A stretch of DNA of 64,000 bases, taken from Liolophura sinensis (lineage: Eukaryota; Mollusca; Polyplacophora; Chitonida; Chitonidae). A program made the position numbers and the translations under genes. Under the pieces are notes generated by a model, which searched no databases, was not told the origin of the DNA, and was given only the letters and a program-made list of their open reading frames with translations. The stretch covers positions 6,944,001-7,008,000 of the forward strand of contig NC_088300.1 of the NCBI RefSeq assembly GCF_032854445.1. The letters run 5' to 3'. The first letter of the stretch is position 1; each line of letters begins with the position of its first letter. This document shows, in pieces, positions 5,143 through 45,387 of this stretch.

Positions 5143-5315
5143 GAATTTATTTATTTGATTGGTGTTTTATGCCGTAGTCAAGAATATTTCACTTACATGA
5201 CGCTTGCCAGTATAAGGGTGGGAAAAAACCCACGACCATCCGCAGGCTGCTAGCCGTCTTTCTCACGTCTCACTGGAGAGAAATCCAGCATGAGCTGGGC
5301 TTGAACCAAAATTAA
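5143..5315 (-). mobile_element. SINE copy with internal deletion
   Basis: Minus-oriented copy with tail TTTATTTATTTGATTGGTG and body CCCACGACCATCCGCAGGC. It retains CAGCATGAGCTGGGCTTGAA near the B-box side. Confidence 0.85.
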
Positions 5316-15257: not shown

Positions 15258-15368
15258 AGATTATTTATTTATCTGATTGGTGTTTTACGCCACACTCAGG
15301 AATATTTCACTTATGTGATGGCTGCCCACATTATGGTGGGAGGAAACCAGGCAGAGCCCGAGGGGACT
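15258..15368 (-). mobile_element. SINE copy, truncated
   Basis: ATCTGATTGGTGTTTTACGC through to GGCAGAGCCCGAGGGG. A second, more decayed relative follows at about 15427-15530. Confidence 0.8.
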
Positions 15369-19121: not shown

Positions 19122-19188
19122 TCATGTCAAAGGTCGGTTGGTACAGTAGAGGTTATAAAACTGTCTACTGACTGCCATGCCCAGGCCC
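19122..19188 (-). CDS. MUS81: MUS81 coding exon 20 and stop
   Basis: It encodes [20 protein letters not shown], then T and TGA, matching the conserved SRTLSQLYC...PLT terminus of the family. The acceptor is ttacacag|G. No clear AATAAA was found close downstream. Confidence 0.94.
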
Positions 19189-22100
19189 CTGTGTAAAATA
19201 CATAAAGTTTCATATCAGGTGTAGTTTATATAATATTCATAACAGATACTTAGTAACCCACGACCATCCTCAGGTAAGAAGGAAAACAATGCTTCATAGA
19301 TGTATCAAACATAAACATTTTGTACATTTCTAAATTAAAGGAATATCCTGGAGCTATAGATTGTTACGTGAGAATGCTCGTGTATAAACGCTGGGAACAT
19401 CCGATTGGGCAATGGTTAAAGTCAATCTACATATACATGGGCTTGCAAGTACCAACAACTGTTAACTCAGCAGCTGCTTGGAGATGAGCTGACAAACTTT
19501 ACATTATGTTATGTACAGATATGTATAGCATATTGGTGGAGGACAAGTGGTCCTCAATGAATGATAGACTTCATAACTGAGCTACACTGGTGAACTGACT
19601 CCTTGGCTCCATCAATCTCACTTGCATTCTTCATAGCTTACCTCCCAGCTTTCCCAGTTTTGATTTTACTCAACAATTCTTCCTTTTCCTTTTCTGTGCA
19701 ACAAGCATTATATGCTGCTATCAAACTGAAAAATAACAAATTTCATCCACATAAAACAGAGCTTGAGTAAGTAGATTACATATGAAAAGCAGTAACAGCA
19801 GTACTTTGTGATGTGAATGAATACTGTGCTCCTCTTTAAAATAAATGCAGATGTTTCTGTTACTATGACAATATACAATGTACTCCAACCTAGTGATCTT
19901 GTAAAAAACAAAGAGATTTAGAAGAGCTAGAAGTTTGGTGGTTATCTTGTGATCATGCAGTACATGTAGAGAGCAGGACAGGGTGGAAGTTTGGTGGTTA
20001 TCTTGTGATCATGCAGTGCACATAGACAGCTGGACAGGGTGGAAGTTTGGTGGTTATCTTGTGATCATGCAGTACATATTGAGAGCTGGACAGGGTGGAA
20101 GTTTGGTGGTTATCTTGTGATCATGCAGTACATGTAGAGAGCTGGACATGATGGAAGTTTGGTGGTTATCTTGTGATCATGCAGTACATATAGAGAGCTG
20201 GACATGATGGAAGTTTGGTGGTTATCTTGTGATCATGCAGTACATATAGAGAGCTGGACAGGGTGGAAGTTTGGTGGTTATCTTGTGATCATGCAGTACA
20301 TATAGAGAGCTGGACAGGGTGGAAGTTTGGTGGTTATCTTGTGATCATGCAGTACATATAGAGAGCTGGACAGGGTGGAAGTTTGGTGGTTATCTTGTGA
20401 TCATGCAGTACATGTAGAGAGCTGGACAGGGTGGAAGTTTGGTGGTTATCTTGTGATCATGCAGTACATGTAGAGAGCTGGACAGGGTGGAAGTTTGGTG
20501 GTTATCTTGTGATCATGCAGTGCATATTGAGAGCTGGACATGATGGAAGTTTGGTGGTTATCTTGTGATCATGCAGTGCACATAGACAGCTGGACAGGGT
20601 GGAAGTTTGGTGGTTATCTTGTGATCATGCAGTACATGTAGAGAGCTGGACAGGGTGGAAGTTTGGTGGTTATCTTGTGATCATGCAGTACATGTAGAGA
20701 GCTGAAAATGATGGAAGTTTGGGGGTTATCTTGTGATCATGCAGTACATATAGAGAGCTGGACATGATGGAAGTTTGGTGGTTATCTTGTGGTCATGCAG
20801 TACATATAGAGAGCAGGACAGGGTGGAAGTTTGGTGGTTATCTTGTGATCATGCGGTACATGTAGAGAGCAGGACAGGGTGGAAGTTTGGTGGTTATCTT
20901 GTGATCATGCAGTGCATATTGAGAGCTGGACATGATGGAAGTTTGGTGGTTATCTTGTGATCATGCAGTACACATAGACAGCTGGACAGGGTGGAAGTTT
21001 GGTGGTTATCTTGTGATCATGCAGTACATGTAGAGAGCAGGACAGGGTGGAAGTTTGGTGGTTATCTTGTGATCATGCAGTGCATATTGAGAGCTGGACA
21101 TGATGGAAGTTTGGTGGTTATCTTGTGATCATGCAGTGCACAGACAGCTGGACAGGGTGGAAGTTTGGTGGTTATCTTGTGATCATGCAGTACATGTAGA
21201 GAGCTGGACATGATGGAAGTTTGGTGGTTATCTTGTGATCATGCAGTACATATTGAGAGCTGGACAGGGTGGAAGTTTGGTGGTTATCTTGTGATCATGC
21301 AGTACATATAGAGAGCTGGACAGGGTGGAAGTTTGGTGGTTATCTTGTGATCATGCAGTACATGTGGAGAGTTGGACAGTGTTGAAGTTTGGTGGTTATC
21401 TTGTGATCATGCAGTACATGTAGAGAGCTGGACAGTGTTGACGTTTGGTGTTTATCTTGTGATCATGCAGTACACGTAGAGAGCTGGACAGGGTGGAAGT
21501 TTGGTGGTTATCTTGTGATCATGCAGTACATGTAGAGAGCTGGACAGGGTGGAAGTTTGGTGGTTATCTTGTGATCATGCAGTACATGTAGAGAGCTGGA
21601 CAGGGTGGAAGTTTGGTGGTTATCTTGTGATCATGCAGTACATGTAGAGAGCTGGACAGGGTGGAAGTTTGGTGGTTATCTTGTGATCATGCAGTACATG
21701 TAGAGAGCTGGACAGGGTGGAAGTTTGGTGGTTATCTTGTTATCACGTATAACATGAAGTAAGCGAGAGGGGGTGGAAATTTTAGTGGGTTATCTGGAGG
21801 GTGTGGGGTACATGAAGTGAGGAAGTGGCTGATTTAGTGGGTTACCTGAAAGGTGTGGGGTACATGAAGTGAGGAAGTGGCTGATTTAGTGGGTTACCTG
21901 GAGGGTGTGGGGGTACATGAAGTGAGGAAGTGGCTGATTTAGTGGGTTACCTGGAGGGTGTGGGGTACATGAAGTGAGCAAGTGGCTGATTTAGTGGGTT
22001 ACCTGAAAGGTGTGGGGTACATGAAGTGAGGAAGTGGCTGATTTAGTGGGTTACCTGGAGGGTGTGGGGTACATGAAGTGAGCAAGTGGCTGATTTAGTG

Positions 22101-25100
22101 GGTTACCTGAAAGGTGTGGGGTACATGAAGTGAGCTAGTGGCTGATTTAGTGGGTTACCTGGAGGGTGTGGGGATACATAAGTGAGGAAGTGGCTGATTT
22201 AGTGGGTTACCTGGAGGGTGTGGGGTACATGAAGTGAGGAAGTGGCTGATTTAGTGGGTTACCTGGAGGGTGTGGGTTACATAAGTGAGGAAGTGGCTGA
22301 TTTAGTGGGTTACCTGGAGGGTGTGGGGTACATAAGTGAGGAAGTGGCTGATTTAGTGGGTTACCTGGAGGGTGTGGGGTACATGAAGTGAGGAAGTGGC
22401 TGATTTAGTGGGTTACCTGGAGGGTGTGGGGTACATGAAGTGAATAAGTGATTGATAGAGGTTTTAGTGGGTTACCTGGAGGATGTGGGGTACATGAAGT
22501 GAGGAAGTGGCTGATGGAGGTTTTAGTGGGTTACCTGGAGGGTGTGGGTTACATAAGTGAGGAAGTGGCTGATTTAGTGGTTACCTGGAGGGTGTGAGTT
22601 ACATAAGTGAGGAAGTGGCTGATTTAGTGGGTTACCTGGAGGGTGTGGGGTACATAAGTGAGGAAGGGGCTGATTTAGTGGGTTACCTGGAGGGTGTGGG
22701 GTATATGAAGTGAGGAAGTGGCTGATTTAGTGGGTTACCTGGAGGGTGTTGGGTACATTAAGTGAGCAAGTGGCTGATGGAGGTTTTAGTGGGTTACCTG
22801 GAGGGTCTGGGGTACATGAAGTGAGCAAGTGCCTGATTTAGTGGGTTACCTGGAGGGTGTGGGGTACATAAGTGAGGAAGTGGCTGATTTAGTTGGTTAC
22901 CTGGAGGATGTGGGGTACATGAAGTGATGAAGTGGCTGATGGAGGTTTTAGTGGGTTACCTGGAGGGTGTGGGTTACATAAGTGAGGAAGTGGCTGATTT
23001 ATTGGTCACCTGGAGGGTGTGAGTTACATAAGTGAGGAAGTGGCTGATTTAGTGGGTTACCTGGAGGGTGTGGGGTACATAAGTGAGGAAGTGGCTGATT
23101 TAGTGGGTTACCTGGAGGGTGTGGGGTACATGAAGTGAATAAGTGATTGATGGAGGTTGTAGTGGGTTACCTGGAGGGTGTGGGTTACATAAGTGAGGAA
23201 GTGGCTGATTTAGTGGTTACCTGGAGAGTGTGAGTTACATAAGTGAGGAAGTGGCTGATTTAGTGGGTTACCTGGAGGGTGTGGGGTACATGAAGTGAGC
23301 AAGTAGCTGATTTAGTGGGTTACCTGGAGGGTGTGGGGTACATAAGTGAGGAAGTGGCTGATTTAGTGGGTTACCTGGAGGGTGTGGGGTACATGAAGAG
23401 AGGAAGTGGCTGATTTAGTGGTTACCTGGAGGGTGTGGGGTACATAAGTGAGGAAGTGGCTGATTTAGTGGGTTACCTGGAGGGTGTGGGGTACATGAAG
23501 TGAGCAAGCAGCTGATTTAGTGGGTTACCTGGAGGGTGTGGGGTACAGGTCTAGGATGCCCTTTGCACCCTCTGCTGACAAACGATACATCTGTATAATT
23601 TGTTTACCAAACATCTCTCGTATGGACAGATTCTGAAACAAACAAGAAATTATTGATAGACAATGACTGTAAATCTTGTGAGGTTGTGTTGTTTTCTTAA
23701 TGGTCAGTAAATGTGATGATAAATATAAAGCAATCTGTTCCATTTCCATCAGCTGAATGCTCAAGGTTAATCCCCAAACATGGTTTACAGGTGATTTCAA
23801 GATCACCAAAACTTTAAATACAAATATTTTTGAATAAATAACTCAGAACCTGAGCAACTATTTCCTTCAAAAGTATAATAAATATCACTTTGACAGCCAC
23901 GGAGTAAAACTGGTCAGCATGAAAACTGGTGAAACTGGTGTTGTCTTGTGTGAAGCATGAATATTACCTTTGTCTTGACACTGGCTTCATTGAACTCCTT
24001 GAACTCCATCAGACGTTGGTGCGGGTCTTTGATGTTGTAAGGTCCTGATATGTCAGGTAGAATGTCAGCAGGAAAAGCATCCAGGGTCTTGTCCTGTCAC
24101 AGACACCAGAGTCTAGTTTACACTACAGCTACAAGTATATGCACATTATCTCAGTTTCTGCTCTAAAATAGTCCTTATGTAGATGTATATTGTCTGAATC
24201 TGATAAAGACACCTTTTACTGTGGTAACAAGCATCTACATGTAAGTGGTTGCTGTCAAGGCAGGGCAAAAATATATTGCTGTAAGACTGGACCAAATTAG
24301 TATTGTCACTCATTGGCTGTCATTTGGGGAAACCCACGACCATCCGCAGGTTGCTGGAAGACCTTCCCACTTACGGCCGGAGAGGAAGCCAGCATGAGCT
24401 GGACTTGAACTCACAGCGACCGCATTGGTGAGAGGCTCCTGGGTCATTACGCTGCGCTAGCGCGCTAACCGACTGAGCCACGGAGGCCCCGCTGTCATTT
24501 GAACAGTCAAAAGTCTGTCCAAGTGCAAAATGTAAACACGAGTGGGACGGCACTCTGATCACCAGCTCAAAATAAATATTACGAAAAAAAACAAACAAAC
24601 ACGGGTTTGTTTGAAGAAATGTATATATTACATTTATTATTTTGTGGATTCTAAATGAAAACAAATTGCTGTGAACCAATTTTGCCACTGTTCCCACTTT
24701 TGTACGCGAAAGTGTGATGAAAATGGATACAAATGCAGCATCCCAGTGAGAGGGCTTACAAAAGTTATCTCCCTTGTTTCACGTGGGTGGGGTTAACTGT
24801 CAACGGTTGATCAGTCAAGTGGCATAATTAAAGGTGATCTGTCCAGGTTGATCAAACTTTTCTCGCAAAACTGACACAGTATATACTAGAGGTATCTGAA
24901 ACATGGAGTCAAAGTGATTTAAAGAATTAAAATATTAGATGTTGTAAAAAAAAAAAATAATTTCAAGGCCGACAGGCCGAGTTTTATGAAGCTTGGTATT
25001 CTCTACACGCTTATCTTCCCTTGATGTCCCCTTGGTTATGACGTCACAGTGGAGCCATGTCATTTTGTGCAGCTATGAGCTGTGCTAATCGCACACCAAA

Positions 25101-28100
25101 TTACAATAGCATTAGTTTTCATGCCTTCCCATCGGACTCCTCCATGCGATGAAAATGGATTATTGCCATGCGATGAGACCATTTCCTGCCGAATAAGCAC
25201 TCAGTTATGCTCCAACCATTTTGAGGAGGCATGTTCTGACCCAGCTTACAGTCAAAAATGTAGTTTGGAATTGGATTCCAAAGTGGACTGTAAAGTAAAA
25301 AAACTGTTTTTTCCCACATATTTGGCATACTAGCGCCATTTAAGGGCACACAAGGGATGTGAGTTTTTTTTCCTCGCAATTTTTGGTCTTAATAATATTT
25401 TTAATTTCTACAAGTAAAACAACTCACCAGATGCATTTTTTTGTTTTCATAATTTTTTTCCATAACACAGGTATACCATTCAGTTGGGTAAGGTGAGAAA
25501 TAAGACCAGGACAGTCCACCTCTCAGGTGACATGGGAATCTGGCAGTAATAAGCTACATCATGTACTAGACTCTTGGAAAGTGTTGACTGCTAGGTAAAG
25601 ACAGATAGTAGATTTTCTGCTTCTATTTTGCATATTAAGATTTGTTTAATATCATCAATTTTCTCCACATACATCAGTCATTTCTGTGTACTCCTTAAGG
25701 AAAGTTAGTGCCCTACATCACATCATGCCTTACACAAATGTTCAGCAGACTACACGAATGAGTTACAGACTTTTAGACTAACCTGATAATGTGATTAAAG
25801 GTGAACATCATCAAGGTAAGGAAAGCCACAGACTAACCTGATAATGTGATTAAAGGTAGAACATCATCAGGGTAAGGAAAGCCACAGAATAACCTGATAA
25901 TGTGATTAAAGGTAGAACATCATCAGGGTAAGGAAAGCCACAGAATAACCTGATAATGTGATTAAAGGTAGAACATCATCAGAGTAAGGAAAGCCACAGA
26001 ATAACCTGATAATGTGATTAAAGGTAGAACATCATTAGCGTGAGGAAAGCCACAGACTAACCTGATAATGTGATTAAAGGTAGAACATCATTAGGGTAAG
26101 GAAAGCCACAAAATAACCTGATAATGTGATTAAAGGTAGAACATCATCAGGGTAAGGAAAGCCACAGAATAACCTGATAATGTGATTAAAGGTAGAACAG
26201 CATCAGGGTAAGGAAAGCCACAGACTAACCTGATAATGTGACTGAAGGTAGCGCGTCATTAGGGTGAGGAAAGCCACAGACTAACCTGATAATGTGACTG
26301 AAGGTAGCGCGTCATTTGGGTGAGGAAAGCCACAGACTAACCTGATAATGTGACTGAAGGTAGCAGCATCATTAGGGTGAGGAAAGCCACAGACTAACCT
26401 GATAATGTGATTAAAGGTAGCGCGTCATTAGGGTGAGGAAAGCCACAGAATAACCTGATAATGTGATTAAAGGTAGAACATCATCAGAGTAAGGAAAGCC
26501 ACAGAATAACCTGATAATGTGATTAAAGGTAGAACAGCATCAGGGTAAGGAAAGCCAAAGACTAACCTGATAATGTGACTGAAGGTAGCGCGTCATTAGG
26601 GTGAGGAAAGCCACAGACTAACCTGATAATGTGACTGAAGGTAGCGCGTCATTAGGGTGAGGAAAGCCACAGACTAACCTGATAATGTGACTGAAGGTAG
26701 CGCGTCAATAGGGTGAGGAAAGCCACAGACTAACCTGATAATGTGACTGAAGGTAGCGCGTCATTAGGGTGAGGAAAGCCACAGACTAACCTGATAATGT
26801 GACTGAAGGTAGCGCGTCATTAGGGTGAGGAAAGCCACAGACTCTTTGTTGTCTCCCGTCCTCTTCACCTGGAACCCATCAACAATCTACAACACAAAAA
26901 TACAACCAGTAATCATGCCGGTGCAGTGGGAACACCACAAAGGTCCAATCCACAGTTGTGGAGATCTCAAGAAGACAGTTTCAGCTTTGATTTATTATTT
27001 ATCTGATTGGTGTTTAATACTTCAGTCAAAACATTTCTTTTTATATGACAGCAGTCAGGTTACAGGCGGAGGAAACTGGTATAAACCATCAACTTTGGCA
27101 AGTTCACGTATCTGACAGACCTCTGGACATAGTGCTGTAGCCGAACAGACTAAGGAAACCTCTGGACATAATGCTGTAGCCGAACAGACTAAGGAAACCT
27201 CTGGACATAATGCTGTAGCCAAACAGACTAAGGAAACTTCTGGACATAATGCTGCAGCCAAACAGACTAAGGAAACATCTGGACATAATGCTGTAGCCAA
27301 ACAGACTAAGGAAACCTCTGGACATAATGCTGTAGCCGAACAGACTAAGGCACTGACAGTCATTTTGAAACACATTTTAACCATCTAAGCCAGCGGATCA
27401 CGCATTATAACCAAGGCTCTAACTAATATGAGTGTTGTCAATGTTTTGCCCAGTAGGGGTGAGATCTGGAAAATACAATATGGTTCCCACATGTACATTG
27501 CACAGGTACTTTCCCGGTAGAACAGCTATGCCATATGTCTTTTGTCAATACATACACTGTACTTACATAAAAGTATATATCTGTAAAACTGTGATATGTA
27601 GACAAAAACTGATACACAGAATTATATAAACTAATCAATTACATATTAAAACCTACATGTTCTCAAACTTTAAAAGACTCTTTTAAAAGCCTCTTCTGAT
27701 ATGAGGAAAATACAACCAATACCATTAGTAACATTGGTTGCCATGTAACTATGCTTACAGCCTACAGACCCTGGTCACAGATAACACTGTTGTCTGTGAT
27801 AAGTAGACCTATTTACCAGCTTGAAGGAATGTATTTCAATGCCACCTTGCATTTATCAAGACATATACACACCTGTGTGTTGGCTATTGTCTGCCTGAGC
27901 CTGTCCTCTGGCATGCTGAAGTTCTGTACTGAACCATAGTCTTCTATCAGGTACATGGGACATCGCAAACCACAGCGCTTCAGGCGAAACTGAAAACATC
28001 AATGTAAGAGTTGAACATTTATTCTTATTATTTGTGCAAATTTAAAGATGATATGATGTTTAACTAGAAATTTGTTAATCAAAATTTGTACTTTTAGTCA

Positions 28101-34100: not shown

Positions 34101-37100
34101 GTACATCTATGTTATATGAACATTTTAAGGTACGAGACAAACCTCCTGACTTAAACCCAACCTGAAAACGGAATGAGCTCTAATTCATCAAAAGGCTAGG
34201 GCACACAAAATATGCCAAAGTTATCCAGACATATCGTCACATGATATTATAAGTTGTTGACTGCTGAAATAGCCCTGCACTTTTAGCTTGAATTTAACAC
34301 AACTTGCAGAATGCATGTAGTCTTCAGCAATGTTACCTGTGTTTTTGGAGAACTTGTTATCAGTCTTGGAAATGTCCTTCTGACAGACTTTCCTTTTCTC
34401 AGGTACAACTGTACTGGGCTCCGGTACAACTGTACTGGGCTCAGGAGTTCTACTATGAGCAATCTCTGGAGGAGTATTGGCAAAATCCTTGGCAGCCGAG
34501 TCTTCCAGGTAAGCAAAGATGTTGTCATCGTTGAGTGGCCTGGTATGTTAACATATATAAACAGATGGATTTTTTTTTCCTGATAAAAATCAGCACAAAT
34601 TAACTTTTTGCTTTATGGGCAGAATGAGTCTTTTTTTAAGTAACATGGTATAAAAATAAAAACACATGACTCCATCATCTCCATTATCAAGGGCAAGGTG
34701 ACGTAACCTTTACTCTAGCTCTCTAACATCAAAGGTATTTTCAACATAATAGTCAAAGCAGTAGGCCTAACCTATGACGGATAAAAGTTGTGGACTTCGG
34801 TGATGAAAACCCAAGTAATAAACATAGCTTTCTCGGAAATTGGACACACTGGAAGAATATTTCTTCCATTGCTTGAACTGTTGATACAGCAGGCCTACTA
34901 CAAGGAACTCCAGCGACCTTGTTTCAATGGCCTAGCTGCAGATGCACGGCCAGTGTTTTCCTGGTTCAGGTCGTAGCCTGCCGAGGGGTTGTGCTAGTCA
35001 TTTTAACCCCAAGTAAATGTTTACAAAATTACAATAGGATTGTTGTACAACTAGATTCATACTCAACTCTGGAACATATGGAAATAAATCTAAGTACCAC
35101 TGAGGCTGATCTAGGAATTCGACTGTCGCTGAGATGAGAGCAGTGCTGACTTAGTTATCGAGGATGGCCGAGAAAGCAAATCGGCTTGAACACGGCGTTT
35201 CAATCATTTTACAGTGTTTTATAAGAGAAAACAGAAAAAAACATCCATTGTATGCGAGAAAGACAAAAGAAGAAAATCTAAATTCTTCAGTTGTAATAAA
35301 TTCAGAGAAAAAAAATTACATGATATGATTTTAAATTAATTTTAAGCATTGTCTGGTGAGATGCCGTCTTCTTATTCCCTTAAACCTGCGGCATCCCTAA
35401 TGAATTTTGTGCTGACTCTGGTATTCGTTATTTAGAAACTGCTGACTAAACGCTAAAATGAACGACCAAAAATGTACTTTTGGGTCGCGACGGTGTGCTA
35501 CTCTGTGACATAATTTGTGATACCATCGTTGAATATTACACTGCTTGTTATTCAATCAACTGGTTCTATGTTTGTGGTGGTCCCTAAGTGATACAGGCCT
35601 GCCCTACAACACTTTGTGAAATGGCCTTTCGGCTACACATAGCTAAATTGTTGTAAACTATCTCAAAATGACGTCTTATGCAGCAGTTCTGTGTTATCAT
35701 GTCACTTCTTGGAATGAATGGGTAAAGGTTACGTCCCAGCTTAGGGTGCCCAAACCTGACAGCAACATGTCTGATTGGAAAAACTTTCTCACGATGGCTG
35801 CCTCGACTCACACCAGCCATTTGTGCAGTATTGTCATTTTGTTCTACATGTTATTCCGTGAAATCTCATTATAATAAGAAAGTGTGATACTTTTTAGAAA
35901 GCTTGAGTATCCTGCTATTGACTGAAATATGCTTTAGCCAGGAGCTGTCTTGTCCTTTAATTTGTGAGAAATGTGGACTATCACAGCAAATTTTCCCTTC
36001 AAGATTACAAAGAGTATTGTGTGACGGATATAAGGTACTTTCTTCAATATGCTTACCTTCCTAAAGGAAAATTTTACCATGAGTTACACAATGCCAACCT
36101 AAACAAACAAGAGCATTCAACATTGCACATGTATGAAAAGTTATCAACCCATCTCCACAGCATGAATCTGTAGCACATGTAAATTATACAGAAAAACATT
36201 ACTAAAAATTACCTCGATATGTCCAATTTATACTTTTTGCCAGATTTAATAAGGTCTTGATAGTTGCAGGTGATCAAGAAGCCAATTCCAATTGAGTCTA
36301 AAATAAAAAATACAAATAACACCATAACAAATAGCATCACAGGGATCTTGCCATCAACAACGAAACTTATCGTCCAGTCACAAAAGGAAACTTATTATTA
36401 AGATAACTTTATGTTAACAGGCACACAAGGAAACATTGTGTTAACAGACAGACAAGGAAACTTATCATCAGCATATACAAACAGAAACTGGCTATTAACA
36501 GACAAATGAGGAAACCTGTTATTAACAAACACACAAGGAAACTTACCATTAACAGTCACGGCGGCTTTGTTCTTATCCACAGTCTTTGACCCAGATTCTG
36601 TGACATACCAGTACTGAAACCTGAAACAAAATATTACCAGCTACATTCAATACACACATGGAGACCAGCAGGCTTTGTATGACATACTGGGTTATTTCCC
36701 TTGTCTTTTCAGTTCTTTGGGGATTCTAGCTCAAAATATGTCCTGATGACTAGAGCAACTCTGTCTATACAGGATAAAGAGAGCAGCTGCTCAGCAGGAA
36801 TACAACTCTCAAAGAAAACTGAGAAAATTAATCTGCATCTTCCAACAGACAGATACACTATTCTATTTTTAAATACAATGCAACGTTTACTAAGTTATGA
36901 TTCTCTAATTGCAAGCCTGAATCTCCAATTAAAAACAAATATGATTTTATTATTAAACTTTATTAATAAGTTCAGACGTTTGGTTTCCTCACTTCAGTTT
37001 ATTACGAGATACATCTAACGTTATCAAATTCTGTGACAACATGATTTATGTTGATTCCCCGACAGTATAATATCTCAGAATTAGTAGCAACTTATTTCCC

Positions 37101-40100
37101 TTGTTTGCCCAGTATTTCATTAAGCAAGCAGAACTGGCTGTAACCTGTCTCATTCTGAACCTGTCAGCAGTCCAGTATCTGAACCCTTGCTACCTTCCCT
37201 GTAGCACCCAGTATTGGTTACCTACATTGCTCAACTAGTTTCATTGGCTGAGATATTCTCTAGACGGAGGCGTTGAATTTATAAGTTTGAACTGCTACAG
37301 AGAGTGCAATCTACAAAGGAATCTCCTGTCAGAAGCATTACTGTGCTATGATACCACATGTGCTAGGACAGTGCATTTCGTTTATGCAGTGAGGGTATCC
37401 CTTCTACGTTTTGACACATGTAGGAGTACATGGTGGGCAACACAACCATGACAACCCCCCGAAAAGTTATTGAGACAGTTTTTGGTTCTTCACGTTGCAA
37501 ATAATTTCGGAGATGTTCAGCCCAAAAGCCTTCATCTATAAATTGTTGACCTGTTTGCGAAAATGACGCTCTCATGATTTAAAGAGAGATTTGCCAACAG
37601 ACAATAAGAAAGCTACCTCAGAAGCAATGGCGGTGATGTGTACTTGACCCTACAAGTCAATCGTGTCAAGCATGTGGACTAACCTGTCAGCAGCCCAGTT
37701 TTGCAGAGCACTACTTGTCTCCCCTGACAAACTGGGTAATCTGGGCAAATCTGACTCTGCAGTAAAAGTCTCATGTCCAGATGTTACAGGGCCTGTGAAT
37801 GATGGGGACAGGGAAAGGCCAGATGGCACAACAGCTGCCTCACTGACCTCACGCAGACTGTGGGCTAGGTCAGATGGCACAACAGCTGGAGACAGAGGTG
37901 CCTTGAAGGCAGTACCTGCGTCATTGACCTCACTCAGCTTGTGGGCTAGGTCACAACCATTCTGAGTCAAGAAATACCTGAAAAAAATAAATATTTTAAA
38001 GACACAAACCACAAACTACTACTATACAGAACCTAAATGAATAACATAATCAGCTTCTTTTTACTTATTTTGTTTTCTTCAACTTCAACCAGCATTCTGG
38101 TCATCACAAGTAAATATTTCATCACAAAAATCTCTCTATTACCTGGAGCAGGATTATTCTTGTGATTTTGAGTTTTAAGATCATCAAGTTGTCTTCATCA
38201 TATGGATGATTTACCTGGAGGACCAGGCTGTGTATCTGCACCCAGGACAGATGACTTACCTGAAAGGACTACTCTCTTTGATCACCAGGCCCTTACCTAT
38301 CAGTGTGCCCATGGAGGACCAGGCTGTGTATCTGCACCCAGGACAGATCACTTACCTGAAAGGACTACTCTCTTTGATCACCACACCCTTACCTATCAGC
38401 GTGCCCATGGAGGACCAGGCTGTGTATCTGCACCCAGGACAGATGACTTATCTCACAGGACTACTCTCTTTGATCACCAGGCCCTTACCTATCAGCGTGC
38501 CCATGGAGGACCAGGCTGTGTATCTGCACCCAGGACAGATGACTTACCTGAAAGGACTACTATCTTTGATCACCAGGCCCTTACGCATCAGTGTGCCCAT
38601 GGAGGACCAGGCTGTGTATCTGCTCCCAAGACAGATGACTTACCTGGCAGGACTGCTCTCTTTGATCACCAGGCCCTTACGTATCAGTGTGCCCATGGAG
38701 GACCAGGCTGTGTATCTGCACCCAAGACAGATCACTTATCTCACAGGACTGCTCTCTTTGATCACCAGGCCCTTACCTATCAGCATGCCCATGGAGGACC
38801 AGGCTGTGTATCTGCACCCAGGACAGATCACTTACCTGGCAGGACTACTCTCTTTGATCACCAGGCCCTTACGTATCAGTGTGCCCATGGAGGACCAGGC
38901 TGTGTATCTGCACCCAGGACAGATCACTTACCTGGCAGGACTACTCTCTTTGATCACCAGGCCCTTACGTATCAGTGTGCCCAAGGAGGACCAGGCTGTG
39001 TATCTGCATCCAGGACAGATCACTTACCTGGCAGGACTGCTCTCTTTGATCACCAGGCCCTTACGTATCAGTGTGCCCAAGGAGGACCAGGCTGTGTATC
39101 TGCACCCAGGACAGATGACTTACCTGAAAGGACTACTCTCTTTGATCACCAGGCCCTTACGTATCAGTGTGCCCATGGAGGACCAGGCTGTGTATCTGCA
39201 CCCAGGACAGATCACTTACCTGACAGGACTGCTCTCTTTGATCACCAGGCCCTTACGTATCAGTGTGCCCATGGAGGACCAGGCTGTGTATCTGCACCCA
39301 AGACAGATCACTTATCTCACAGGACTGCTCTCTTTGATCACCAGGCCCTTACCTATCAGCATGCCCATGGAGGACCAGGCTGTGTATCTGCACCCAGGAC
39401 AGATCACTTACCTGGCAGGACTACTCTCTTTGATCACCAGGCCCTTACGTATCAGTGTGCCCGTGGAGGACTAGGCTGTGTATCTGCACCCAGGACAGAT
39501 CACTTACCTGGCAGGACTACTCTCTTTGATCACCAGGCCCTTACGTATCAGTGTGCCCATGGAGGACCAGGCTGTATATCTGCACCCAGGACAGATCACT
39601 TACCTGGCAGGACTGCTCTCTTTGATCACCAGGCCCTTACGTATCAGTGTGCCCAAGGAGGACCAGGCTGTGTATCTGCACCCAGGACAGATGACTTACC
39701 TGAAAGGACTACTCTCTTTGATCACCAGGCCCTTACGTATCAGTGTGCCCATGGAGGACCAGACTGTGTATCTGCACCCAGGACAGATCACTTACCTGGC
39801 AGGACTGCTCTCTTTGATCACCAGGCCCTTACGTATCAGTGTGCCCATGGAGGACTAGGCTGTGTATCTGCACCCAGGACAGATCACTTATCTGAAAGGA
39901 CTGCTCTCTTTGATCACCAGGCCCTTACCTATCAGCATGCCCATGGAGGACCAGGCTGTGTATCTGCACCCAGGACAGATCACTTACCTGGCAGGACTAC
40001 TCTCTTTGATCACCAGGCCCTTACGTATCAGTGTGCCCATGGAGGACCAGGCTGTGTATCTGCACCCAGGACAGATCACTTACCTGGCAGGACTGCTCTC

Positions 40101-43100
40101 TTTGATCACCAGGCCCTTACGTATCAGTGTCCCCATGGAGGACCAGGCTGTGTATCTGCACCCAGGACAGATCACTTACCTGGCAGGACTGCTCTCTTTG
40201 ATCACCAGGCCCTTACGTATCAGTGTGCCCATGGAGGACCAGGCTGTGTATCTGCACCCAGGACAGATCACTTACCTGGCAGGACTGCTCTCTTTGATCA
40301 CCAGGCCCTTACATATTAGTGTGCCCATGGAGGACCAGGCTGTGTATCTGCACCCAGGACAGATCACTTACCTGGCAGGACTGCTCTCTTTGATCACCAG
40401 GCCCTTACGTATCAGTGTGCCCATGGAGGACCAGGCTGTGTATCTGCACCCAGGGTCAGGCTGCAACAGTCAACGTACTTATACAATTCGTATTGGTGTT
40501 TGAGTGCAGCATAAAAAAATTTCATTATATGACCATTTGAGACGTGCAGAAATATTTAGGAATTATTCCTTTTCCATGTCGCTTGTGTTTCCATACCTGC
40601 ATGTAGTACGTGAAACTGTAAAACTTGTTCAATGACATTCTTTTTTTTTCTTTCATAAACAATTGGTGGTCAAAGTAAGTCTAATCAGGATTTAGAGCAG
40701 GAAAGTTATACCCTACAAGCTAAGCCTACCACACAGCATGAAGGTGTACATGTACTTTCATTTTGAAGCTTGCCTGACATAGGAAAGGTTATGAAGAGGG
40801 ATATGAAAATGACTCACCACTGTGAAGGATTTGTCTGCTAGATGCTGAGCTTCTCTGGTTAAGTCAGCCCTGGTCATATAACCCCTCCCATTACCTCTCT
40901 GTATAAAAACAAATTTGCTTGATTCATTCCCTTAATCTCCACCAATATGAACAGCTCACTATTCACATTACACTGAAGACTAAAGTACACACAAATATCT
41001 TTACCTTTACACACCTTTGTACACCTTTGTACACCTTTATGTACATGTACACCAACTGAATTATTGGTTGATTGACTGAGCCAATAAGTCAGGCAGTGAC
41101 ATTTCCCCCTTCCAGAAATACTATCTTCCTGTCTTCTATCATTACTACTACAACAGGCAGATTTTTTCTTTCTTCTAAAGATTGCTAAGCTTTAATATTC
41201 AAAATTAAAGAGAAATCTGTCTCTATCAAAATCAATTCATGGATTTCGCATATTTTTGTCAACCTTGTGTGGTGGGCTAGCTATTACCTGATAGCTGCTG
41301 TAGAGGGTAAGCAGAATGGCATAAGGCCCAGACCTATAGGCAGGGATATACTCTCCACTCGACTGTCTCTGCAACACAACATCATCTAATTTAAATACTT
41401 AAAAATATCTGAAGATATAGATGCACTCCTGAGTATTACAGACTTGCAAAAGGCTGTCAGGTTTGCACAAAGGCTGCCTGGTTTGCACAGAGGCTGTCTG
41501 GTTGGTACACAAGCTGTCTGGTTTGTACACATGCTGTCTGGTTTGTACAGAGGCTGCCTGGTTTGTACAGATGCTGTCTGGTTTGTGCAGAGGCTGCCTG
41601 GTTTGTACAGAGGCTGTCTGGTTTGTACACATGCTGTCTGGTTTGTACAGAGGCTGTCTGGTTTGTACAAAAGCTGCCTGGTTTGCACAAAAGCTGTTTG
41701 GTTTGTGCAGATGCTGCCTGGTTTGTACAGAGGCTGCCTGGTTTGTACAGAGGCTGCCTGGTTTGTGCAGAGGCTGCCTGGTTGGAACAGAGGCTGCCTG
41801 GTTTGTACAGAGGCTGCCTGGTTTGTACAGAGGCTGCCTGGTTTGTACAGAGGCTGTCTGGTTTGTGCAGAGGCTGCCTGGTTTGTACAGAGGCTGCCTG
41901 GTTTGTACAGAGGCTGTCTGGTTTGTACAGTGGCTGCCTGGTTTGTACAGAGGCTGTCTGGTTTGTACAGAGGCTGTCTTTTAGGGCTGAATGATTTCTC
42001 TCTTCCACCAATATGATACTTCGTGTCTACATGGTGTCAGAAGTTTCATGAACCAGACTATCATACTACATGTAAATATCACCAAAATCCAGATTTAATA
42101 CCCTAAAAAGAACCTTAGAAACTGTAATAAAATCATACATAAAACAATCCACTTATAAGAGCAAAACAATATATACATACCTGTGACCTTGGCTGCAAAG
42201 GGCTGGGGTCCTCATCACTGTCACTGAGGCTGTGAATATTTAAAGACGTGGGTGCAGCTTGAATGACAGAGGCAGGGCAAGGTGATCCGGTAACATCTCG
42301 CGTAGGGACACACTTGGCAGGTTTGTGTGGGGGTGGGGCGATGTCATCTACATCTCCTGGAGAACACAAACGTTTACACTGAAGACTTATGGCATGGGGC
42401 ATTCTTCTAGTTAAAGAAAGAAAACACTGGATTTTCTTATTTATTAGTTTATTTCATTATTTCTTTTTTATGCTGTACTAAAAGAGGGTCACCATACATG
42501 TAGTGACAATTTGATTCTGACAGGCTGGCAACCTGGCACATGTGAAAACAGTATTAAACTCTTTTCTCAGTAGTAATGTAATCAGGTTATGATATGTGAA
42601 AGTAGTTCTATGATGTTACTAGTATACTACTTGGTCAGGAAGAATGTACTGACAAAATACTGTTTGTCCTTCCCACAGTTTCATGGAAGGATGGTTTGTC
42701 TCTGAACAACAGTGTGGTCTGTGTAAATTCTCATCTCTGACACTCCCCCTTCCTACAGTGGAATCATAATAGAACCTGGCAGCCCAGAAACCAAACAGAT
42801 ACAGAGCTGCCACTGGGCCCAAACAGTCAGACTTAGGAACTACCCTGACCTCAACCAGATGAGGAAACAAGCATGCACAGGGGGTCAAAACTTCTGATGA
42901 CCCATGGATTTCAAAAAAGCCGTACACATTCCGCTGACTGAATTGCTACATCAAAATACACTGAAACAGGTGCACTTCACAGCATGTTAAAGAATCTGTC
43001 TCATACTGATATGTTTTTGTTTCTTAAAGTCTAAATTCAAATACTCTTTTATTCAACAGGATATCAGCACTTTTCAAGGAAAGAATAGCCCGATGCCATA

Positions 43101-45387
43101 AATACCTACCATGCTCAGAAATGTGCTTGGCCAGTCTTGCATCAAGCATCTTACAAATCTTGTCACCTTTATTAAAAAATTGAACAGAAACGTAAATATA
43201 TCTTGTCAAGGATGGGACAAGAATCACAGTTATACGAGAAAAGTATTCTTTGAAGACTTAAACCCTACAGTTAAGTTTTTAAGTGAGGAACTACACATAC
43301 ATTATAACATTACCTAATACATTAAAAACTGTTTAACAAACTGATTATTTTAGGCATCTACACTGTTAAGTAGAAAAATGAATAGAAAGCAAGTCAACAT
43401 CAGATAAGCAAAACCATGTCACCATCAAACCTAAAAACAACGTTGTTCTTTACCCATGTATTGGTCACCTTTCCAGGTGACAACAACTGTGGAATTTACA
43501 TGTACTTGCTTTTCACTAATACCTTACTTTGGTTTGTTGTAATGCAGTGAGTTTTTCTGCGAACAAATATTTACACAAAGAACTTACCAAAATTCTCCAA
43601 AACCTTGCATTCTTTACCAGATGTAAACACCAGAGGGTATTTCTTCAGACTTGCTAGTGCCTGTGGAACATCCACACAGTAACAAAATTATGTCAAACAA
43701 GTTACATGTTACCGTATTGAGCAAAATTTCAAGCATAAAGTTATTATTTTGGTAAGGCTTAAGGGTAGAGGAAACCTGGCAAAGCTAAGGCTGAAATGTT
43801 GGAGTTGTCCAAATTGGGATGCAGCAGTGAATGCTGCTGTTGTCACAGGCCTCCGGTTTTTTTGAATGTTGTCAATCAAAAGTACTAAGCAGCCAATCCA
43901 AAAACTAGCAATTTTGTTTGTAAAGTCACTTCACCCATCATACCAGTACATGTATTGTAATATTTTGTCTGTAAAGTCACATCACCCATCATACCAGGTA
44001 CATGTATTGTAATATTTTGTCTGTAAAGTCACTTCACCCATCATACCAGTACATGTATTGTAATATTTTGTCTGTAAAGTCACTTCACCCATCATACCAG
44101 TACATGTATTGTAATATTTTGTTAGTAGTCACTTCACCCATCATACCAGTACATGTATTGTAATATTTTGTTTGTAAAGTCACTTCACCCATCATACCAG
44201 TACATGTATTGTAATATTTTGTTTGTAGTCACTTCACCCATCATACCAGTACATGTATTGTAATATTTTGTTTGTAAAGTCACTTCACCCATCATACCAG
44301 TACATGTATTGTAATATTTTGTTTGTAAAGTCACTTCACCCATCATACCAGTACATGTATTGTAATATTTTGTTAGTAGTCACTTCACCCATCATACCAG
44401 TACATGTATTGTAATATTTTGTCTGTAAAGTCACTTCACCCATCAAACCAGTACATGTATTGTACTATTTTGATTTCATATTTGTCACTGGTGTTTAACT
44501 TTATCCTAGATGTGTTTCACTACTATGGCAGCATTCAGGTTTGATGGTTGAGGAATCCAGACACAGTTAGATGAAACCACTGCACAGTGCCAGATACCTG
44601 ACAACACTCTAAGACACTGGGCTGCATCTGACCCAACTAGATGCTGGACTTGTACAAGCAACCTTATTGGTCAAGGGCTGGTGATTGGAACTGAGGCCCT
44701 GCTTAGCTAAACAAAGTCATGTATTATCTTGAATAGAAAGTATTTGTTCTACAGTCATTTATGACAAAAGGTTAATAGCCTCTTTTATAATGTCCATTAA
44801 CACAGGTAACAATATTATTTTAGATCAATAGTTTGTACAAATACAAACATGTTACAGTGCTGCCTCACCGGAATGCCATGCCAAGACAACCATACATGGC
44901 ATCCTACAGTCACAGCATATGGGCACTGTGCCGACCAGCATGTGCTCTATTACCTTATGCTGTGTGTCAGGACAGGGAAGTACCCATAGTCCCAAGTTTA
45001 AAGTTAAACAGTTGATATGACCTACTCGGGGTTGAACCCATGTCTCTTAGTCAAAAGGACTGTCCTCTTCCTGTTGGAGGCAACAGAGGAGATATGTACC
45101 ATACATATCACTGATGTACGTACATCTGTACCAGGATTGGCTATTTCAATAATACAGCCATACAGCAACAAAGTGCTGGATGTGCTAGTGTTTTATCTGA
45201 TGATCATGGTGCTGTGAAATAAACAGAAATTTTCTTTCCTCACACATACTTTTCTGTAACAATACTGGCTCTTCATTCCCTTCTCAGCAGCTTCATCTCT
45301 CCACTCTGTCAGCCACTGGACAAACAGCGGATTAGGGCACAAATTCTTCTTCTTTTTTCTTTTTCCCTTTAAGCCCTTTATATCCAT
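19122..45387 (-). CDS. MUS81: MUS81 structure-specific endonuclease subunit, 20 coding exons
   Basis: MUS81 pairs with EME1/EME2 in the nucleus and cleaves 3'-flap, replication-fork and Holliday-type DNA structures (family knowledge). Twenty exons with GT/AG splice sites and consistent phases give about 779 aa against about 551 in human. Order of domains: N-terminal helix-hairpin-helix ([16 protein letters not shown], exons 1-3), Ser/Pro linker (exon 4), winged-helix-like region (exons 5-8), a long poorly conserved linker (exons 9-12), the XPF/MUS81 nuclease core (exons 12-16: [20 protein letters not shown] fitting ERKxxxD near residues 562-568), and the C-terminal HhH pair (exons 17-20) ending [15 protein letters not shown]. 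The catalytic residues are present, so it looks functional. Only the 5' edge of exon 11 is unresolved. At least five introns begin with tandem arrays copied from the preceding exon-donor junction. A 5'UTR intron is likely, because an acceptor lies at about 45403. Confidence 0.95.
19642..19725 (-). CDS. MUS81: MUS81 coding exon 19
   Basis: It encodes [20 protein letters not shown] and IKTGKAG, the linker between the two C-terminal HhH motifs. Splice sites are ttttcag|T and GGGAG|gtaagc. It is 3.8 kb from exon 18 because of two arrays. Confidence 0.95.
19925..21745 (-). repeat. 56-bp minisatellite in MUS81 intron 18, about 32 copies
   Basis: The plus-strand core is AAGTTTGGTGGTTATCTTGT followed by GATCATGCAGTACAT. 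Copies are very homogeneous. At 21745-21800 intermediate units grade into the neighbouring 52-bp array, so the two share ancestry. Confidence 0.93.
21746..23548 (-). repeat. 51/52-bp minisatellite copied from the MUS81 exon 18 end and donor, about 34 copies
   Basis: Each unit contains GTGGGTTACCTGGAGGGTGT then GGGGTACA, which on the minus strand is exon 18 TGTACCCCACACCCTCCAG followed by donor gtaaccc. The array begins inside the coding exon itself. Confidence 0.95.
23529..23632 (-). CDS. MUS81: MUS81 coding exon 18
   Basis: It encodes the first HhH motif: [20 protein letters not shown], then YPTPS. Splice sites are ttcag|AAT and TCCAG|gtaacc. The TACCCCACACCCTCCAG|gtaaccc junction is reiterated about 34 times in the following intron. 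Confidence 0.96.
23968..24093 (-). CDS. MUS81: MUS81 coding exon 17
   Basis: Forty-two codons ending [15 protein letters not shown], matching the TFSDFNAGAIKNK segment before the C-terminal HhH domain. Splice sites are gacag|GAC and AAG|gtaata. Confidence 0.94.
24327..24490 (-). mobile_element. SINE with complete tRNA-like head
   Basis: Minus strand from 24490: GGGGCCTCCGTGGCTCAGTC (A box) and GTGAGTTCAAGTCC (B box), then the SINE body. It is truncated on the tail side. The pol III boxes look intact, but the long insert between them rules out a normal tRNA gene. It lies in MUS81 intron 16. Confidence 0.85.
25057..25330 (+). pseudogene. THAP-type zinc-finger relic
   Basis: The frame from ATG 25057 reads [12 protein letters not shown] (C-x4-C), FHAFP, KWIIAM and KHSVML, the expected order of a THAP domain. 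It has two in-frame TGA codons. After a frameshift it resumes as [17 protein letters not shown], giving the C-x2-H pair and the HFEE signature. It lies inside MUS81 intron 16, antisense to the gene, and cannot encode a protein. THAP domains occur in host regulators and P-element-like transposases; the source is undetermined. Confidence 0.75.
25785..26845 (-). repeat. 56-bp minisatellite copied from the MUS81 exon 16 end and donor, about 19 copies
   Basis: The plus-strand unit ACTAACCTGATAATGTGACT continues GAAGGTAGCGCGTCATTAGG; on the minus strand it is the exon 16 end plus CAG|gttagt. The five or so units next to the exon match it almost exactly. Many distal units carry a shared variant (TTAAAGGTAGAACATCATCA). 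Confidence 0.95.
26791..26886 (-). CDS. MUS81: MUS81 coding exon 16
   Basis: Thirty-two codons: [20 protein letters not shown], then [12 protein letters not shown], the end of the nuclease domain. Splice sites are ttgtag|ATT and CAG|gttagt. Its last ~40 nt and donor are the template of the 56-bp array that follows. Confidence 0.95.
26988..27115 (-). mobile_element. Decayed SINE copy
   Basis: TTATCTGATTGGTGTTTAAT, followed by CAGTCA, TATGACAGCAGTCAG and GGAGGAAACTGG, with many substitutions. It abuts the 39-bp array. Confidence 0.7.
27116..27352. repeat. 39-bp minisatellite, 6 copies
   Basis: The unit contains CCTCTGGACATAATGCTGTA then GCCGAACAGACTAAGG. It lies in MUS81 intron 15 and starts at the edge of the SINE relic. 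It is not obviously related to an exon. Confidence 0.9.
27873..27989 (-). CDS. MUS81: MUS81 coding exon 15
   Basis: Thirty-nine codons: [20 protein letters not shown], then [18 protein letters not shown]. These are the strand and helix following the catalytic motif. Splice sites are tttcag|TTT and CAG|gtgtgt, phase 0 on both sides. Confidence 0.95.
28210..29105 (-). repeat. 37-bp minisatellite in MUS81 intron 14, about 24 copies
   Basis: The minus-strand unit GGATTCAGGGAGCAGAAGAT then TGTCAGTGTATTGTGG resembles exon 14 GATTCAAGGAGCAAAAG but has lost the donor GT. It is a diverged sister of the 36-bp array. Confidence 0.88.
29225..30100 (-). repeat. 36-bp minisatellite copied from the MUS81 exon 14 end and donor, about 23 copies
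   Basis: The minus-strand unit AGATTCAAGGAGCAAAAG|gttggtgggtttagtggg starts within exon 14. Most units near the exon keep the AAAAG|gttggt donor, and the 12-codon phase is open for several units. Confidence 0.95.
30080..30192 (-). CDS. MUS81: MUS81 coding exon 14 (ERKxxxD catalytic motif)
   Basis: It encodes [16 protein letters not shown] followed by [12 protein letters not shown], with the metal-binding ERKxxxD motif intact. Splice sites are ctgtag|GA and AAAAG|gttggt. The final GRFKEQK plus donor is the unit of the adjoining 36-bp array. Confidence 0.96.
30887..31008 (-). CDS. MUS81: MUS81 coding exon 13 (nuclease core)
   Basis: It encodes [20 protein letters not shown] and DFAWVARE, the VGDF part of the XPF/MUS81 nuclease motif. 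Splice sites are ggtcag|C and ATCAG|gtgaga. Confidence 0.95.
33641..33887 (-). CDS. MUS81: MUS81 coding exon 12 (start of nuclease domain)
   Basis: A variable Ser/Pro/Gly linker ends with [20 protein letters not shown], the first strand of the ERCC4-type nuclease (LLCVD; Asp expected in the active site). Splice sites are ctttcag|AA and AAAAC|gtaagt. Confidence 0.93.
34337..34452 (-). CDS. MUS81: MUS81 coding exon 11 (5' boundary uncertain)
   Basis: The 3' end is firm: FSKNT and donor ACACAG|gtaaca, phase 1 into exon 12. The reading frame is open to about 34505. Phase from exon 10 requires an acceptor leaving one nucleotide, which fits AG sites ending just above 34452 or 34449. Neither has a good pyrimidine tract, so a missed small exon upstream is possible. 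It contains EPSTVVP twice in tandem. Confidence 0.6.
34402..34443 (-). repeat. In-frame 21-bp coding duplication in MUS81 exon 11
   Basis: Two 21-bp units encode EPSTVVP twice. They differ by a single substitution near the unit edge. Confidence 0.9.
36213..36297 (-). CDS. MUS81: MUS81 coding exon 10
   Basis: It encodes [20 protein letters not shown] and KYKLDIS, flanked by attttag|AC and CGAG|gtaatt. It is phase-compatible with exon 9 (G+AC = Asp). It is part of a linker extension I do not find in human MUS81. Confidence 0.82.
36384..36560 (-). repeat. Short array (about 5 units of ~36 bp) from the MUS81 exon 9 end and donor
   Basis: Minus-strand ACTGTTAATG|gtaagtttcc is followed by units such as TTGTTAATAACAGGTTTCC and CTGTTAACACAATGTTTCC. 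Divergence is high and most copies have lost the donor. Confidence 0.75.
36547..36620 (-). CDS. MUS81: MUS81 coding exon 9
   Basis: It encodes [20 protein letters not shown] plus VTVN. The segment is absent from short vertebrate proteins but fits frame and splice sites gtttcag|G and AATG|gtaagt. Its exon-donor junction is repeated about five times just downstream. Confidence 0.85.
37684..37977 (-). CDS. MUS81: MUS81 coding exon 8
   Basis: It opens with [18 protein letters not shown], the end of the winged helix, and continues as a Ser/Pro-rich linker. The linker holds an in-frame imperfect internal duplication ([12 protein letters not shown], then [21 protein letters not shown]). Splice sites are tttcag|G and GACAG|gttagt. 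Confidence 0.93.
38206..40460 (-). repeat. 96-bp array of MUS81 exon 7 plus donor, 23 full copies and a partial
   Basis: Each minus-strand unit carries GTGCAGATACACAGCCTGG...AGTCCTGCCAG|gtaagtgatctgt: nearly all of exon 7, its donor and 13 nt of intron. Units occur at exact 96-bp spacing from the donor at 40366 down to 38254, with a partial at about 38206. I count 19 of 23 donors as perfect CAG|GTAAGT. At least two copies (near 39473 and 39857) have TGG changed to TAG. Confidence 0.96.
40372..40460 (-). CDS. MUS81: MUS81 coding exon 7 (first copy of a tandemly amplified exon)
   Basis: It encodes [20 protein letters not shown] and then LVIKESSPA(R), the winged-helix segment before YFLT. The acceptor gttgcag|CCTGACC is unique to this 5'-most copy, and the donor is a perfect CAG|GTAAGT. 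The same exon body recurs every 96 bp down to 38206. I chose this copy because only it has a normal acceptor and because reading past its donor meets TAA at once. Confidence 0.85.
40488..40545 (-). mobile_element. Decayed SINE fragment
   Basis: CGTATTGGTGTTTGAGTGCA, ATTTCATTATATGACC: a weak match to the SINE tail just upstream (in transcript) of exon 7. Confidence 0.45.
40818..40898 (-). CDS. MUS81: MUS81 coding exon 6
   Basis: Twenty-seven codons including [20 protein letters not shown], aligning to the FLTKEELLQRCAQKS segment of vertebrate MUS81. Splice sites are atacag|AGA and GTG|gtgagt. Confidence 0.93.
41288..41368 (-). CDS. MUS81: MUS81 coding exon 5
   Basis: Twenty-seven codons including [17 protein letters not shown], the conserved entry to the winged-helix region. 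Splice sites are gttgcag|AGA and CAG|gtaata. Confidence 0.94.
41450..41985. repeat. 20-bp minisatellite in MUS81 intron 4, about 27 copies
   Basis: The unit AGGCTGCCTGGTTTGTACAG is highly homogeneous. Its length of 20 bp leaves frames open on both strands. No clear relation to flanking exons was seen. Confidence 0.95.
42181..42356 (-). CDS. MUS81: MUS81 coding exon 4 (Ser/Pro linker)
   Basis: Fifty-eight codons of low-complexity linker rich in Pro, Ser and Asp, ending [15 protein letters not shown]. Splice sites ctccag|GA and CAG|gtatgt fit the phases of the flanking exons. Sequence conservation is weak, so assignment rests on frame and position. Confidence 0.85.
43110..43166 (-). CDS. MUS81: MUS81 coding exon 3
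   Basis: It encodes [15 protein letters not shown] plus ISEH, the end of the N-terminal HhH fold. Splice sites are aataaag|GT and CATG|gtaggt. Confidence 0.93.
43588..43660 (-). CDS. MUS81: MUS81 coding exon 2
   Basis: It encodes [19 protein letters not shown] and the following VLENF, the second half of the N-terminal HhH region. Splice sites are ccacag|GCA and TTTTG|gtaagt. Confidence 0.94.
43925..44475. repeat. 47-51-bp minisatellite in MUS81 intron 1, about 11 copies
   Basis: The unit contains CACTTCACCCATCATACCAG then TACATGTATTGTAATATTTT. Some units lack AAAG. It is not obviously exon-derived. Confidence 0.93.
44478..45100. repeat. Decayed interspersed repeats
   Basis: 44478-44700 resembles an old SINE copy (CACTGGTGTTTAACTTTATC, TTTCACTACTATGGCAGCAT). 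44850-45100 has a GGGTTGAACCCATGTCT box and looks like another dispersed repeat. Confidence 0.4.
45250..45387 (-). CDS. MUS81: MUS81 coding exon 1
   Basis: Forty-six codons from ATG: a Lys-rich start, then [20 protein letters not shown], nearly identical in pattern to vertebrate MUS81 N-termini. The donor is AAA|gtatgt. An acceptor (ttattag) 16-20 nt before the ATG suggests a non-coding upstream exon. Confidence 0.95.

Follow-up and report, generated by a model that had tools for sequence, protein, structure and literature searches.

In amphioxus, exon-intron boundaries can be straddled by minisatellite-like tandem repeats described as mirages, and in the accessible parts of two papers these repeats carry the splice signals with them while the coding exon stays intact (PMC3087553, PMC3902484). 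Affected genes include Adh3 (Canestro et al. 2002) and troponin C, both cited in the available sections of PMC3087553, the globins treated in that same paper, and PGBD5 (PMC3902484). As far as the accessible text of the two papers goes, mirages reportedly leave splicing undisturbed and are unstable in length, also somatically (PMC3087553, PMC3902484). Here we analysed a window of 64,000 nucleotides (the whole stretch of DNA under study) from a chiton whose assembly was first named L. japonica, a name corrected to Liolophura sinensis according to the available part of PMC12441733.

The MUS81 coding region occupies 19638..45387 on the minus strand (coding sequence read from 45387 to 19638) and was delimited from an exon model together with Pfam and PDB matches. 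Its 19 exons encode 787 aa with no internal stop codons, and the introns are GT-AG. The Pfam domains HHH_8, MUS81-like_WH, ERCC4 and EME1-MUS81_C were found in the product, with the ERCC4 nuclease domain at 540-672, and the top PDB match was a Mus81 protein (E = 5.1e-80). Exon 7 falls within a region matched by 2mc3. Two repeats lie within the coding sequence itself: a 21-bp unit repeated in tandem in exon 11 (window 34398-34445, TRF) and, from the exon model, a near-repeat DLAHKLSEV / DLAHSLREV in exon 8 (about 37800-37960). Elsewhere in the window the word TTGAGTACGGCRKAAAACACC occurs in five copies with 0-3 mismatches (121-141, 2280-2300, 5161-5181, 14215-14235 and 15279-15299); it looks like part of a dispersed SINE tail, and we take it to be a word familiar from mollusc genomes.

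Five of the 18 MUS81 introns open with a tandem array whose unit comprises the tail of the preceding exon, its GT donor and the first bases of the intron. All five arrays are on the minus strand and were delimited by TRF. The exon 7 donor array (38216..40454) has a 96 bp unit in 23.3 copies and includes 83 exon nt (exon end 40372), and the degenerate array at the exon 9 donor (36414..36555) has a 27 bp unit in 5.3 copies with 9 exon nt (exon end 36547). The exon 14 array (29385..30094; 36 bp, 18.8 copies) includes 15 exon nt (exon end 30080), the exon 16 array (25775..26843; 56 bp, 19.1 copies; exon end 26791) has a unit of 53 exon nt and 3 intron nt, and the exon 18 array (21781..23547; 52 bp, 33.6 copies) includes 19 exon nt (exon end 23529). 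A previous reading based on the letters alone (the sequence-only reading) had placed arrays at the start of introns 7, 9, 14, 16 and 18, and comparison of the TRF arrays with the exon ends showed all five introns to be right. The composition that it gave to the unit, the exon's own 3' end plus GT donor plus intron start, was likewise borne out for all five, and four of the unit lengths claimed (96, about 36, 36, 56 and 52 bp) agreed with TRF, the exception being the exon 9 unit, which is 27 bp. It had also held that the exon stays under selection while the array drifts, and the MUS81 exons and first donors are indeed intact, with an open frame, while the units vary. The donor arrays in MUS81 are confirmed as real.

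Counting the first unit, GT is kept at the donor place in 19/23 complete units of the exon 7 array, 18/19 units of the exon 14 array, 19/19 of the exon 16 array and 33/34 of the exon 18 array. In total, arrays make up 10,128 of the 23,386 bases of MUS81 intron sequence (43%). Since 96 is divisible by 3, an uninterrupted frame of 701 codons runs antisense through the 96-bp array (plus strand, window 38205-40307), a trap for gene finders.

Further traces, some of them uncertain, lie deeper in the introns, again on the minus strand. An old single copy of the exon 8 donor region (exon end 37684) lies in intron 8 at approximately 37157..37202 (score 18.5, reached by 0/2000 shuffles). The exon 14 unit has a drifted relative in a 38-bp array further into intron 14 (28221..29062; score 23 against the exon 14 junction, 0/300 shuffles; unit against unit, 1/2000). 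The second array of intron 18, with a 56-bp unit (19930..21745), may be a diverged relative of the 52-bp unit of exon 18, as judged from the shuffle comparisons (8/2000 against the unit and 23/300 against the exon 18 junction). The mid-intron arrays of introns 1, 4 and 15 were considered as drifted donor copies and rejected, given that 43, 53 and 68 of 300 shuffles, respectively, reached their scores.

The placement of the arrays was compared with chance within the window genes MUS81 and RRP36. For each of 26 donors and 26 acceptors of the two genes, a query of 45 exon nt and 15 intron nt was compared with the remainder of its own intron and with 500 shuffles. Six of the 26 donors scored above all shuffles (E7 60, E8 18.5, E9 16, E14 33, E16 60 and E18 34), compared with one of the 26 acceptors (RRP36 exon 6, 20.5). 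When the exon letters alone of MUS81 exon 9 were used as query the score was 9 against a shuffle maximum of 10, which is not significant. Eleven arrays were taken in the introns of the two genes and five of these span a donor, whereas 0.58 would be expected (P = 1.2e-4) by random seeding on tolerated positions, i.e. those leaving exons intact; for RRP36 taken by itself, 0/2 arrays span a donor. MUS81 had been selected for its arrays, and an independent survey of other genes therefore carries more weight.

On the acceptor side, the evidence comes from two other genes in the window. The gene next to MUS81, with 9 exons, is presumably RRP36; the Pfam match of one of its exons (14.5 bits) is under the cut-off (27.1). 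Its intron 5 is filled by copies of pieces of the downstream exon 6 (minus strand, 10735..11112, with the TRF array proper at 10752-11087; exon 6 starts at 10719), and an acceptor-side case therefore exists. In this one case the copies begin at exon position 3 and include no recognisable acceptor. The 44-bp array of RRP36 intron 4 (minus strand, 11678..13001) stops 4 nt before exon 5 and holds no exon letters. In the gene Ino1 (myo-inositol-phosphate synthase), an array in intron 2 (window 63572-63681) stops 3 nt short of the exon, its units repeating the polypyrimidine stretch. The latter two arrays were rejected as acceptor copies bearing exon sequence (exon letters reached by 347 and 462 of 1000 shuffles, respectively). 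Their intronic parts alone do repeat (0/1000 each, with 30 intron and 20 exon nt), and for Ino1 intron 2 the value was 50/1000 with a 15 + 45 query.

The survey was built on the Pfam hits to Cpn60_TCP1 (50 rows) and Myosin_head (81 rows), leaving out 37 Adaptin_N rows. Twenty regions (L033-L052, 181.8 kb) were chosen for their many hits before the letters were seen, and they contain 79 of the 131 exon hits. Junctions were placed without transcripts, by a matrix derived from the junctions of this window, which gave a small sample of 69 donors and 64 acceptors. TRF found 69 arrays with a period of at least 10, covering 28.1 of the 181.8 kb (15%). The repeat table in the accessible part of the genome paper gives 0.08% for simple and other repeats, compared with the 15% in the survey regions (PMC11068029), and such arrays may be hidden in that paper's unclassified 14%.

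In the Cpn60 and myosin genes 6/69 donors and 0/64 acceptors are spanned by an array, and two further arrays abut acceptors. The number of donors expected by random seeding is 0.96 if the smallest period of each array is used (P = 3.9e-4) and 1.49 if the largest is used (P = 3.5e-3). In the alignments plain copies are seen, for example, at one TCP1 exon in L033 (seven) and at another in L036 (10 or more). The sequence-only reading had suggested testing array starts for enrichment at donors, and this test, run on the gene sample, was positive (6/69 against 0.96-1.49 expected). Its judgement that chance placement is implausible is thus supported twice, by 5 donor-spanning arrays against 0.58 expected in the window and by the survey. 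Since Cpn60_TCP1 and myosin genes at other places in the genome have donor arrays too, the phenomenon is not confined to MUS81, contrary to the local process that had been proposed; nor is the amplification one across donors only, given the acceptor-side case of RRP36 exon 6. Among the Pkinase loci (30 loci, L003-L032, of 138 rows), 5 donor ends and 1 acceptor end qualified and none was spanned, and pooling these donors with the survey gives a donor-spanning rate of 6/74 (8%, interval 3-17%).

Junction copies were also counted in the survey, at 9/69 donors versus 1/69 for the control. The donor copy at C1:26642195 in L046 and the control hit were dropped, both coming from an apparent set of mutually exclusive exons, which left 8 donor copies, among them one weak copy in L042 and one with only 8 exon nt in L048. 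The set in question consists of adjacent copies of one myosin-head stretch (model about 118-152) at C1:26642195 and 26643291, probably mutually exclusive exons. Acceptor copies were found at 3/64 versus 0/64 for the control, one belonging to this apparent set of exons and two where an array abuts the acceptor, and these three were left out of the comparison of 8/69 with 0/64 (Fisher's exact test, p = 0.0065). The donor versus acceptor contrast gave p = 0.03 in the survey and p = 0.0055 with the window added; in the count of 11/102 versus 1/93, RRP36 exon 6 was entered as the single acceptor, though its TRF array ends short of the exon. In a genome-wide word test, three occurrences of CAGGTAAGT at 20-50 bp spacing gave 301 matches and the reversed word 158, and the arrays grouped by hand on contigs C1 and C2 numbered 14 versus 6 for the reversed word, a surplus that is not decisive because a donor word should be the more frequent of the two anyway.

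Arrays anchored on an exon keep a record of their own growth. Identity to the exon drops with unit number in the arrays of exon 7 (rho = -0.57, p = 0.005), exon 14 (rho = -0.53, p = 0.02) and exon 16 (rho = -0.57, p = 0.014), while no distance gradient in identity to the exon was seen in the exon 18 array (rho = -0.02, p = 0.92). Within the exon 16 array, the exon part is reproduced exactly in three of the four leading copies, and units far from the exon have changes in common, an in-frame TAA among them. The units of the exon 7 array agree best at a lag of 6 (0.967, versus 0.941-0.956 at other lags), which points to block exchange. Between about 9/27 and 53/56 of a unit is exon sequence, a share so variable that there is no fixed breakpoint. 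Copying went from exon to array, since the PDB matches align vertebrate Mus81 with the ends of exons 14, 16 and 18, and the units depart from the exon.

Taken together, these are probably mirage-type minisatellites, in which duplications spanning a donor are tolerated since the first donor stays intact and the array grows afterwards, with a tolerance filter behind the lean to donors. A tandem duplication without fixed breakpoint would by chance span a donor; the original exon end and the first GT would follow each other as before, the normal mRNA would result when the first donor is spliced, and the duplicate would amount to extra intron only. With exon, first GT and acceptor in the old order, the duplication should thus do no harm as long as splicing uses the first donor. 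The array could then enlarge and turn over via slippage or unequal exchange, the selected exon retaining an unchanged copy at the upstream edge while the far units drift. The donor lean would most likely reflect the order of splicing: the first of many equal donors would be met first and win, whereas copies at an acceptor would sit upstream of the true acceptor and be encountered too early. Such a filter presupposes transcription-coupled or exon-defined splicing, and we favour it in view of how transcription-coupled splicing generally proceeds. Given that 0/64 spanned acceptors against 0.89 expected by random seeding is no significant deficit and that acceptor-side cases exist, the filter rests on the donor versus acceptor contrast.

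Tolerance accounts for the presence of donor arrays but not for their excess, since tolerance alone predicts the rate of random seeding, which is several times below that seen. The excess, together with the lean away from acceptors, calls for a filter by splicing order, for a mutational bias, or for the two combined. We hold it possible, on the doubtful side, that a donor-specific process of this sort (mutation targeted to 5' splice sites, or a splicing-order filter sparing donor copies and removing acceptor copies) keeps rewriting the upstream part of introns from the adjacent exon ends genome-wide, at about 1 donor in 12. Somewhat more doubtful is mutation directed at donors as such, in which events tied to transcription or splicing there (e.g. 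RNA-DNA hybrids or a stalled polymerase) would raise the rate of tandem duplication. The surplus of donor-spanning arrays over random seeding in both window and survey is what such a process would give, but the breakpoints of the units differ widely, and the composition of exon tails is alike with (12) and without (83) arrays (GC 0.50 versus 0.45, GC skew 0.12 versus 0.10).

It is unlikely that the arrays are retained for a function, with multiple donors regulating splicing or adding in-frame peptide units. The decoy donors of exon 7 are strong: 18/22 match the score of the true donor, itself the best of the 26 donors in MUS81 and RRP36. Read-through past the exon 9 and exon 14 donors keeps an open frame of 49 and 105 aa, respectively. 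Read-through past the donors of exons 7, 16 and 18, however, meets a stop after 1, 8 and 1 aa, the array units drift, and insertions at exon 14 would land in the nuclease domain. The near-identical decoys are presumably ignored by the cell, and an array with 18 decoys matching the real donor offers a natural test of how the spliceosome chooses among equal 5' splice sites.

It is very improbable that the arrays are usual intronic minisatellites, or assembly errors, lying at donors by accident. Minisatellites are common in this genome, as the 28.1 of 181.8 surveyed kb in arrays with a period of at least 10 illustrates, but the exon letters within the units score beyond every shuffle and variants are shared block-wise among units. 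The accessible part of the genome paper describes an assembly from PacBio HiFi reads with a mean length of 8,347 bp at 14x (PMC11068029). The worry about an assembly artefact is weakened because the arrays are shorter than this mean read length and because numerous variants are scattered over the units. That the arrays created the introns or shifted the donors (the Rogers model, with duplicated AG/GT) is least probable, for although duplication across AG/GT is a proposed route to intron gain, raised also for amphioxus globins in the available text of PMC3087553, these introns have usual acceptors and mostly long unique sequence beside the array.

Among known systems, the chiton arrays come closest to the mirages of amphioxus and fit their description, as far as it is given in the accessible parts of the papers. 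In both animals the unit spans the exon-intron boundary (in the chiton, in MUS81 and the survey genes), splice signals are present in many but not all units, and the authentic exon is intact with an open frame, as in the 787-aa MUS81. The serial amplification of donors that the sequence-only reading took to be unreported had therefore, in its structure, been described before as amphioxus mirages (PMC3087553, PMC3902484), and its interpretation is partly supported. Mirages can affect both 5' and 3' boundaries, and the available text on the amphioxus globins stresses both (PMC3087553), whereas the chiton arrays lean to donors, with RRP36 exon 6 as the one acceptor-side case. The amphioxus units given in those parts are 10-72 bp (Adh3) or 60-160 bp (globin, PGBD5), in 2-7 copies where counted; the chiton arrays are from another phylum, reach about 33 copies and affect five donors of one gene.

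More distant likenesses were found in three other systems. Minisatellites at exon-intron boundaries that can alter splicing occur likewise in human duplicated genes, but these are variable repeats in segmental duplications, maybe forming introns, whereas the chiton cases are in old single-copy genes with normal introns (PMC2812944). Dual-specific splice sites, e.g. in polyubiquitin, also combine tandem repeats with splice sites, but there a whole intron lies inside a coding repeat and one site is both donor and acceptor (PMC10809524); in the chiton the copies are intronic, and the conserved protein results from the first donor alone. Introners share with the chiton arrays a repeat-driven change of intron content, but they are dispersed insertions of one element, whereas each chiton unit is its own exon's end (PMC9860276). 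No introner-like common element appeared in the two pairs of units compared, 96 versus 52 bp (208/2000) and 32 versus 44 bp (1778/2000). In the accessible parts of PMC12783039, PMC7931591 and PMC2206037 there are no donor-spanning arrays, and no mollusc case of such repeats was among the literature matches listed, whose coverage includes few subscription papers. What is new is the phylum, as far as the literature searched shows, together with the rough frequency of 6/74 sampled donors (8%), the lean to donors, the size of the arrays (as many as about 33 units) and the fading of similarity to the exon with distance in three of four arrays. These findings take a structure known from amphioxus into another phylum and provide a first rough frequency for it.
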